Of a DNA stretch of 64,000 nucleotides, positions 32,214 to 58,210 are shown in pieces (position 1 is the stretch's first letter; each line of letters opens with the position of its first letter). A model generated the notes under the pieces. It was not told the origin of the DNA. It made no database searches and saw nothing but the letters and a program-made list of their open reading frames with translations. The DNA is from Armatimonas rosea (GTDB lineage: Bacteria; Armatimonadota; Armatimonadia; Armatimonadales; Armatimonadaceae), in assembly GCF_014202505.1 (NCBI RefSeq), contig NZ_JACHGW010000004.1:124001-188000 (forward strand), written 5' to 3'. Position numbers and translations under genes: made by a program.

Positions 32214-32265
32214 ACCAAGTCAGCAGTGTACCGTACTTGTGGGGTTCCCGGATAACGTAGAAGTT

Positions 32266-32397
32266 CCGGACAACGAGTGTCCGGGCTTGAGAGGGCGATC
32301 CACCCGCAAGCGGGTACCCGGCCTTCGCAGCCAACGGAATCTGTTGGGCACGAAGGTGCCCGTCGCCCTCTCAAGCCCAAGGACTCGTTCCTTGGGC
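32266..32397. repeat. Palindromic nested-hairpin element, copy A
   Basis: A 132-base near-palindrome between divergent promoters. Left hairpin CCGGACA acgag TGTCCGG (32266-32284); 16-bp outer stem 32283-32298 with 32363-32378; inner hairpins CCCG caag CGGG (32303-32314) and GGGCAC gaag GTGCCC (32346-32361); right hairpin GCCCAAGGA ctcgt TCCTTGGGC (32375-32397). Loops on the two sides are complementary (acgag/ctcgt). It is homologous to the element at 45330 read in reverse. Confidence 0.8.
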
Positions 32398-41703: not shown

Positions 41704-42564
41704 ATGAAAGTTATGCAGAAAGTACTGCGTGGTTTTACACTGATCGAGTTGCTTGTTGTCATCGCGATCATTGCCATCCTTGCCGCAATCCTTTTCCCTG
41801 TCTTTGCCCAGGCCCGGGAGAAAGCTCGACAGACGGCCTGTCTCTCGAATATGAAGCAGCTGACACTGGGCATGGTCATGTATGCACAGGACTACGATGA
41901 GAACTTTCCGGGCTGGCAGTGGGATCGCTGCTACTCTGCCGGTTCAGACCCGACCTGTGTCAACAACGGTGGTGGTCTTTGGCACAACGCGATCTTCCCC
42001 TACGTGAAGAGTGCCGGTGTCTATTCCTGTCCCAGCGATGCACGTCAGGCGGGCGTGAAGACCAACTACTCTGGCTGGTTCAACATGGCCACGGTCAAGG
42101 GCTTCCCCAGGGAGCTCTGGGATCCCATCACCCAGAAGGGTGCCCCCATCTCCTACGGTGCAAGTGAGCCCCTCACGTATAGCTATCCGTCACTGGCCAG
42201 CATTGGCCGGCCCGCCGATACCTATATTCTTGGGGATATGGTGACGACACTCTCGGGCTGGGAGGGCTGGGACCAGTGGGTTCAGATCGCCAACAACCCG
42301 ACGCACCCTGGCTGGACCGCCGCGGGCCAGCCGGCCAACTGGAGCCGATGGCGCCTGATGCGTACTGCCTACCCCAAGGCCGATGCCTGTATCTCCACCT
42401 ACTGGGGAAACAACGCGGTCTGGCAGGGACCGTTTGACCCGGCCTGGGACAAGTGTGCACAGCACTCCGCACAGGGCAACAACATTGGCTTTGCCGATGG
42501 CCACGTGAAGTACACCCAGACCGCACGCTGTACCATCCAGCTCTACGGTATCGTCAACAACTAA
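41704..42564 (+). CDS. Type IV pilin-like protein with H-X9-DG-type C-terminus
   Basis: 286 residues. A class III signal [10 protein letters not shown] precedes the cleavage site G/F and the hydrophobic N-helix starting FTLIELLVV with Glu5, then the [13 protein letters not shown] stretch characteristic of Armatimonadota pseudopilins. Near the C-terminus His is followed by ten residues and then DG ([13 protein letters not shown]), a variant of the H-X9-DG processing-associated motif. It is likely a major surface or secretion pseudopilin; the strong promoter and Shine-Dalgarno predict high expression. It heads a four-gene operon. Confidence 0.88.
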
Positions 42565-45309: not shown

Positions 45310-45329
45310 GCCGTAACCACAAGGGTTCC

Positions 45330-45424
45330 GGCTTAAAAGGGCGACGCGTCCCTTCGGACGCAGTAGATTCTCTTGGCTACGAAGGTAGCCGTAGCCCTTT
45401 CAAGCCCGGACACTCGTTGTCCGG
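45330..45424. repeat. Palindromic nested-hairpin element, copy B
   Basis: Outer stem 45330-45342 with 45394-45406 (12 of 13 pairs), inner hairpins GCGTCC cttc GGACGC (45346-45361) and GGCTAC gaag GTAGCC (45375-45390), and a terminal hairpin CCGGACA ctcgt TGTCCGG (45406-45424) identical to the reverse complement of the left hairpin of copy A. In reverse orientation it aligns with copy A over its length, with three compensatory changes in the GAAG-loop stem. Confidence 0.8.
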
Positions 45425-45447
45425 GCATCTTGTCCCAGCCGACAGGG

Positions 45448-50447: not shown

Positions 50448-51152
50448 CTAGACTCCGAAGACATTGAATGCGGTCGAGAGCGGCGCATCGTTGCCGTTCC
50501 AGGCGGTGCCGGTCGGCCAGTTTACCTTGCGATCCTTGCCGTTGATCCACTTTGCATGGCCATCGCTGTAGGTCATGTTCAGGCCATTGCTATGACGTGC
50601 CTCAACAAAGAAGCGCGTGTCGCTCTGAGGCGTTCCAAAGGGCCAGACACGGTCCACCTCGCCCCAGACCTCCGCAAAGGTCACCACCTCCGCAGGAGCG
50701 GCCATCGCCGCGAGCGTGATCGGGGTCGTGCGAGCAAGCCAGTAGTTGTAGCCGTAGCCACGGCGGAAGCCACGGGTATCGCGCGACGGTGCCTTGCTGG
50801 GGCACTGGTAGAACGGCAGCTTTGCCGTGAACAGATCGGGGCGGGTCGATGCCAGCGCGGCATTGACCTGAGCCGCAAGGTTGGTATCGCCCATCTTGAT
50901 GTAGGGAATCAGGTCCACGGTCCAGTCACGTGCCGGCGGACCACCCGACCAGACCGTACAGAGGGTCTCGTCGTAGTCCTGGACATACATCATGAGCGCG
51001 GTGCCCATCTGCTTGCAGTTCGACAGGCAGCTAATCTGGCGGGCCTTCTCGCGGGCCTGGGCAAAGACAGGGAAGAGAATGGCGGCAAGAATCGCGATAA
51101 TCGCGATCACCACCAAGAGTTCAATGAGAGTAAATGCAGCGTTGCGCTTCAT
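50448..51152 (-). CDS. Type IV pilin-like protein with H-X9-DG C-terminus
   Basis: 234 residues. The N-helix from FTLIELLVV to AREKARQ is nearly identical to the pilin at 41704, but the residue before the cleavage site is Ala ([10 protein letters not shown]) instead of Gly. The C-terminal [16 protein letters not shown] has the exact H-X9-DG spacing. GAGGAG serves as Shine-Dalgarno. It is monocistronic, with its own promoter and terminator, and divergent from an AraC-family regulator. Confidence 0.88.
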
Positions 51153-58132: not shown

Positions 58133-58182
58133 GACGCCCTTTTAGGCCCGAGGAACGAGTGTCCGGACACTCGTTGTCCGGG
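58133..58182. repeat. Palindromic hairpin element, copy C (short)
   Basis: Contains the 19-mer CCGGACACTCGTTGTCCGG (58163-58181), identical to that of element B and to the reverse complement in element A. It overlaps a 22-base perfect palindrome (58154-58175) and keeps GACGCCCTTTTAGGCCC, which resembles the outer stem end of A and B. It looks like an internally deleted copy between divergent promoters. Confidence 0.7.
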
Positions 58183-58210
58183 CTCACCTCGTTGCCCGCA
58201 TTCCCTATGT

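Follow-up and report, generated by a model that had tools for sequence, protein, structure and literature searches.

Elements A, B and C in the 64-kb window

The window analyzed here is a 64-kb stretch of a 6.3-Mb genome (hereafter G000; assembly 98.2% complete) from the phylum Armatimonadota, and it contains three related palindromic elements, each lying between two genes. Element A is bordered on either side by an ABC-F ATPase gene and a cytidine deaminase gene, element B by a TPR protein gene and an alpha/beta hydrolase gene, and element C by an aldo/keto reductase gene and a gene without assignment. A 19-mer, CCGGACAACGAGTGTCCGG, is identical in all three. Scanning the window with Rfam returned two tRNAs only, and A, B and C matched no Rfam model. 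The components of the elements, including matches to covariance model R1 described below, are as follows.

32265-32396, plus strand: element A, full copy of the long-core subtype with module TCCACCCGCAAGCGGGTACCC; fold z −5.6; R1 match at G000:C4:156262-156399
32247-32263, plus strand: half-hairpin echo of A (CCCGGATAACGTAGAAG), outside H1, from the echo analysis
32265-32285, plus strand: left outer hairpin H1 of A, from sequence; A1 helix 1 covaries
32286-32299, plus strand: left strand of the A outer stem (CTTGAGAGGGCGAT), pairing with 32362-32375
32302-32315, plus strand: extra inner hairpin of A, ACCCGC AA GCGGGT, in a module (25 nt, 96%) common to the G028 Y1 gene ends
32331-32347, plus strand: centre of A with GAATCT (CCAACGGAATCTGTTGG), from sequence
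32346-32361, plus strand: right inner hairpin h2 of A, GAAG loop; helix 4 covaries
32362-32375, plus strand: right strand of the A outer stem; covariation in A1
32376-32396, plus strand: right outer hairpin H2 of A; helix 5 covaries
45311-45425, minus strand: element B, full copy of the 73-nt core subtype; fold z −6.0; R1 match at G000:C4:169308-169428
45311-45331, plus strand: outer hairpin of B, GGAACC type (CCGTAACCACAAGGGTTCCGG), a sequence variant
45332-45345, plus strand: first outer stem strand of B
45346-45361, plus strand: inner hairpin of B, GCGTCC CTTC GGACGC
45362-45374, plus strand: 13-nt centre of B, AGTAGATTCTCTT, whose minus strand gives GAATCT
45375-45390, plus strand: inner hairpin of B, GGCTAC GAAG GTAGCC
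45391-45404, plus strand: second outer stem strand of B
45405-45425, plus strand: outer hairpin of B holding the 19-mer
58136-58183, plus strand: element C, a remnant made up of stem strand GCCCTTTTAG and an H hairpin, fused and elongated, that contains the 19-mer

The original prediction, made from the sequence of the window, described A as a nested-hairpin element at 32266-32397. The fold is borne out, with a minimum free energy of −77.6 kcal/mol and a z score of −5.6 relative to 200 shuffles, and the element stands with its bounds moved to 32265-32396 and with the half-hairpin echo added. Element B, which had been placed at 45330-45424, also folds strongly on its minus strand (z −6.0), but its true extent is 45311-45425, the second outer hairpin, which is of a different sequence variant, having been missed. 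Element C does keep the 19-mer, as had been proposed for 58133-58182, yet it is a remnant, at 58136-58183, and has no match to covariance models R1 or R2. The complementary loops (ACGAG/CTCGT) that had been pointed out in the flanking hairpins of A are present but do not in themselves speak for kissing; H1 and H2 are inverted copies of one another, so the complementarity is a necessary outcome of the inversion, and loop kissing was dropped as a separate feature. Elsewhere in the window, positions 41734-41862 and 51006-51134 form a 129-nt inverted repeat (75% complementary) within ORFs, probably reflecting paralogous genes.

A repeat family built from a 52-nt double-hairpin unit

A DNA search of G000 with the window elements returned dozens of copies. 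Covariance models were built from 19 full G000 copies (R1) and from the half unit (R2), and covariance model searching detected 110 half units over 8 contigs, with 46 pairs joined head to head and 18 units standing alone. A half unit spans 52 nt and consists of an outer hairpin H (8 bp, with a loop such as ACGAG), followed by a 14-nt stem strand, CTTRAGAGGGCKAC, and then an inner hairpin h (6 bp, with a loop that is mostly CTTC). In a full element a centre of 13 nt, which usually reads AACCGAATCTACT or differs slightly from it, joins two inverted halves, and the outer stem of 14 bp takes one strand from each end. The core of some copies, A included, is longer and holds an additional hairpin, others have a 20-nt insert in the centre, and elements range in size from 115 to 135 bp. 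GTAG or GAAG precedes H in part of the copies only. The 46 pairs have the plan of a REPIN, i.e., two inverted palindromic units with a short spacer that can fold into one hairpin. Single halves broken off near the centre were seen at L134-L137, L139, L140, and L141, several of them near the stop codon of a neighboring gene.

A genome-wide count had been put forward in the original prediction as a check, and the 110 ends and 46 pairs go well past the three copies visible in the window. The assertion that the 19-mer does not recur by chance is likewise upheld: 61 sites in the genome lie within three mismatches of the 21-mer, compared with none for the reversed control pattern. We detected 10 matches to the family in a genus mate, an Armatimonadetes MAG from Lac Pavin (G001), and no matches to the A/B family in ten further genomes of the taxonomic family. 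An exact 24-nt core pattern, scanned against named genomes, matched only the same genus mate, and a plasmid search recovered no DNA similar to the A/B family. The counts in G000, the genus mate, and the ten further genomes make the A/B family a genus-level amplification.

Placement was analyzed for the 44 G000 copies with a recognizable core, none of which overlaps a gene call. The neighboring genes are divergent at 15 copies, tandem at 23, and convergent at 5, and one copy lacks two called neighbors. Fifty-three of 86 ends point at a gene start, and a TANAAT box is found within 100 nt of 31 of those 53, compared with 10 of 31 window genes that have an upstream gap. The proposal that the elements are mobile or amplified intergenic palindromes resembling REP/BIME or MITE sequences gains support from the copy number, the intergenic placement, and the anatomical likeness of their ends to those of the Y1 transposase genes described below.

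Hairpin covariation, echoes and flanking duplications

Both members of a base pair have changed at 19 of 42 pairs in A1, in which 94.6% of cells are paired, compared with 29-47% when the partner is slid. In the half model, hairpin h reaches 99% pairing, four of its six pairs have changed on both sides and none is G-U, and hairpin H has 6 G-U among 192 cells. Hairpin types are swapped whole between copies; the H types are GGACAAC, GAGGAAC, and GGAACCAC, and the h types are GGCTGC, GGGCAC, GCTCGC, GCGTCC, and GGCGAC. Strong covariation together with the near absence of G-U pairs points to DNA hairpins, and not RNA, as what is constrained, and the pattern fits DNA hairpins, or correction templated by a hairpin, better than it fits RNA.

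At 46 of 88 ends, at least one half-hairpin echo is present, a copy of the loop and outer arm lying outside H and pointing outward. The first copy is mostly 4-7 nt from H and successive steps are mostly 14-18 nt. The echoes number 61 in total; flanks taken 400 nt away contain 3, and a count for the opposite orientation gives 4. Examples are L077 and L082 (G000:C2:1521063 and C1:803335), and similar echoes are seen outside the tnpA-bearing elements L031, L156, and L167. Echoes as paired left and right events were ruled out, the counts at the two ends not being positively correlated (r = −0.28).

Perfect direct duplications flank 3 of the 44 copies:

L127, G000:C2:707415: 17-bp flank duplication
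L076, G000:C2:951815: 21-bp flank duplication
L075, G000:C2:403279: 16-bp flank duplication

The right copy of each duplication starts 4-5 nt past H2. The maximum for mismatched pairs is 12, and the other 41 copies are at background. A target-site duplication of constant length was rejected, since the lengths are 16, 17, and 21 bp and only 3 of 44 copies are involved. Movement of the IS200/IS605 type makes no target duplication, and duplications of 16-21 bp are for that reason unexpected.

Y1 transposase genes between ends of the same anatomy

The original prediction had pointed to a linked RAYT/TnpA gene as something to search for. G000 does contain seven Y1_Tnp loci, each between long inverted ends built like those of A and B, with a single hairpin only at L033. 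The sequences of these ends are unrelated to A and B, and no A/B-type ends were found beside the seven loci or at the loci of G001. No transposase gene in G000 is enclosed by a pair of A/B ends; the gene-bearing pairs that were encountered are two incidental convergent pairs, neither at a Y1 locus, and one of them encloses a gene that appears kdsA-like from its translation. As no A/B-ended transposase gene was found in G000 or G001, the cognate enzyme would have been lost, lie in unsequenced DNA, or act on differing ends.

The survey of Y1 genes took in G000 and G001, additional genomes from their family, and four more from the phylum. Inverted ends were scored, and mismatched flank pairs, used as background, averaged 21.5 with a 99th percentile of 40. 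Of the 22 Y1_Tnp genes with the motif Y---Q--HH, 20 are enclosed by inverted ends with scores over 40, compared with 2 of the 10 other Y1 genes, one of which passes through a microsatellite and the other of which (L157) has a borderline motif. The order H, stem strand, h recurs in the ends. The linked genes encode a short protein that lacks the class 2 tail and has the motifs DH[IV]H (DHVH), WQ, and Y---Q--HH, by which they match TnpA subclass 1.2, an assignment read from sequence motifs. With NCBIfam these proteins score above the cut-off for IS200/IS605 transposase and below that for RAYT. One Y1 gene, L037 (G000:C1:923756), has an apparent deletion between the HUH and tyrosine regions with its inverted ends kept. 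At L111 (G001:C123) and L149 (G054:C315), a complete two-ended element, not one end, is found on each side of the transposase gene.

Short elements that share the ends of local transposase genes

Model R1, which was trained on G000 alone, gave weak matches in six genomes besides G001. Direct comparison revealed that, in four Armatimonadota genomes (G106, G042, G054, and G129), the two ends of a local Y1 gene are both matched by short elements, with 75-100% identity and E values down to 1e-92, and each of the four has a RAYT-style gene flanked by its own units for its own element family. No matching local Y1 gene was found for the short elements of G020 and G139. A 25-nt module, 96% identical, is common to A-type copies and both ends of the G028 Y1 gene. 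In G129, one Y1 transposase gene (L169, G129:C235:4448-4786) has DQVH in place of the HUH motif together with Y---Q--NH, and it is flanked by ends that the genome's short elements match; L169 is probably a decayed source gene.

Outside the phylum, both of the HH-type genes that were examined (Bernardetia and Persicobacter) lie between inverted hairpin ends, compared with neither of two non-HH genes. A plasmid of Persicobacter, a member of the Bacteroidota, carries one gene-bearing element, whose ends lie at 286729 and 287347, together with about six pairs that have those ends but no gene. On a Bernardetia plasmid (NZ_CP147018), an AT-rich Bacteroidota replicon, the subclass-1.2-type tnpA L195 is found between tandem AGCTGC(G/A)TAGCTGCG hairpins.

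Comparison with known systems

The closest described parallels are REPINs or BIMEs with their RAYT (TnpA_REP) enzymes, e.g., in Pseudomonas fluorescens SBW25 (PMC3116915). In both cases, intergenic inverted doublets of a palindrome form one long hairpin, and gene-less units occur genome-wide, with single-copy Y1 HUH transposases as the kind of enzyme to which they are linked. The ends described here differ in that each comprises 52 nt with two hairpins and one stem strand of 14 nt, whereas a REP is one unit of 20-40 nt; the putative partner enzyme is of subclass 1.2, not class 2, and no REPtron with identical ends was found in G000. TIRtrons (PMC3733652) are also Y1 genes (TIRYTs) between long, sometimes self-complementary TIRs, and TIR repeats occur as singles and dimers, as does the family described here. 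According to a later classification (PMC6006769), 20 of 26 described TIRYTs belong to subclass 2.1 and the other six to further subclasses. A common double-hairpin end of variable sequence is not described for TIRtrons in the parts consulted, and Armatimonadota is absent from the phyla listed. REP systems with a lost source gene, the missing REPtrons, are known (PMC3733652), and by likeness to them the A/B family may also have lost its source gene.

Subclass 1.2 of TnpA_Y1 was distinguished in 2018 as a group that resembles IS200 but has neither IS properties nor REP partners (PMC6006769). As presented there, its members share with the linked genes the motifs DH[IV]H, WQ, and Y---Q--HH, a length of about 150 aa, a low copy number, and diverged copies within a genome; they are found mainly in Cyanobacteria and Bacteroidetes, and they lack REP and, as a rule, typical secondary structures at their termini. 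In contrast, the genes described here lie between inverted double-hairpin ends, and gene-less elements related to them exist. Class 3 TnpA_Y1 differs in its motifs (NHVH and YV[VI]-EQ) and in its phyla (PMC6006769). The linked genes are homologous to the IS200/IS605 transposase, with a match to Pfam Y1_Tnp and an NCBIfam IS200/IS605 score over the cut-off, but each end of IS200 is one small subterminal hairpin without a long inverted repeat, and IS200 copies in one genome are near-identical, unlike the copies described here.

Interpretation and alternative explanations

Ends of like anatomy at subclass-1.2-type tnpA genes, and gene-less elements that share tnpA ends in other genomes, lead us to read A, B and C as miniature non-autonomous elements, resembling REPINs or TIR dimers, of a subclass 1.2 TnpA, with a probability of roughly 80%. 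The make-up of the unit, two inverted double-hairpin ends, and the associated transposase subclass go beyond the original prediction.

A repeated structured regulatory RNA upstream of genes (an attenuator, terminator, or noncoding RNA), kept for its RNA fold, would account for the very stable fold, the covariation, the 53 of 86 ends directed toward a gene start, and the TANAAT box within 100 nt of 31 of those 53. However, both strands fold and G-U pairs are nearly absent; single halves, modular exchange of hairpin types, and echoes are not expected of such an RNA, convergent and tandem placements exist, no Rfam model matches, and a like anatomy surrounds transposase genes. We consider a conserved RNA highly improbable. 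The inverted ends, the size of 115-135 bp, and the 16-21-bp duplications flanking 3 of 44 copies would suit a MITE derived from a classical DDE transposon, with an unlinked DDE transposase acting on its inverted ends, but the remaining 41 copies show no constant target duplication, the ends are made of hairpins, and the matching ends seen elsewhere enclose Y1 HUH rather than DDE genes, making such an origin very unlikely.

Passive amplification of a palindrome by replication slippage, template switching, or gene conversion would need no transposase, consistent with the lack of a cognate gene in G000, and it could explain the perfect stems, the replacement of whole stems with hardly any G-U pairs, and the tandem half-hairpin echoes at 14-18-nt spacing. 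As a sole cause it is very unlikely, since the copies occupy unrelated intergenic sites on many contigs as exact inverted dimers and the like anatomy is systematically tied to tnpA genes. Passive amplification may nevertheless act on top of transposition.

Under the miniature-element reading, the double-hairpin ends would serve a TnpA of subclass 1.2, which is a single-strand transposase of the Y1 HUH type, as the equivalent of a REP or TIR. An autonomous element would carry tnpA between both ends, and the short form would remain or spread without the gene. In a single-stranded region, e.g., the lagging-strand template, each end would fold into two hairpins; a TnpA dimer would bind the hairpins, nick alongside them through its HUH/Tyr site, and then move or copy the element dimer in trans into other intergenic sites. 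We infer folding, binding, nicking, transfer, and transposition from homology to IS200/IS605 and TnpA_REP, and the enzyme that served the A/B family is similarly inferred.

Transposase-linked palindromic miniature elements are a kind already known; what is new, relative to the open-access literature searched, is that double-hairpin ends are tied to a subclass reported without them. A bolder and doubtful conjecture is that subclass 1.2 TnpA is a widespread and hitherto unrecognized double-hairpin-end transposition system in several phyla and that the echoes are footprints of repeated single-strand cutting and rejoining at the hairpin. If so, each element would carry a record of its own activity in its echoes. 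The ends and the gene-less populations are candidate substrates for subclass 1.2, so that its binding, cutting, and mobility are directly testable. A REPIN-like system is now placed in Armatimonadota, with no earlier description in the open-access literature searched, and the common plan of hairpin, stem strand, and hairpin is one that can be searched for by structure instead of sequence.
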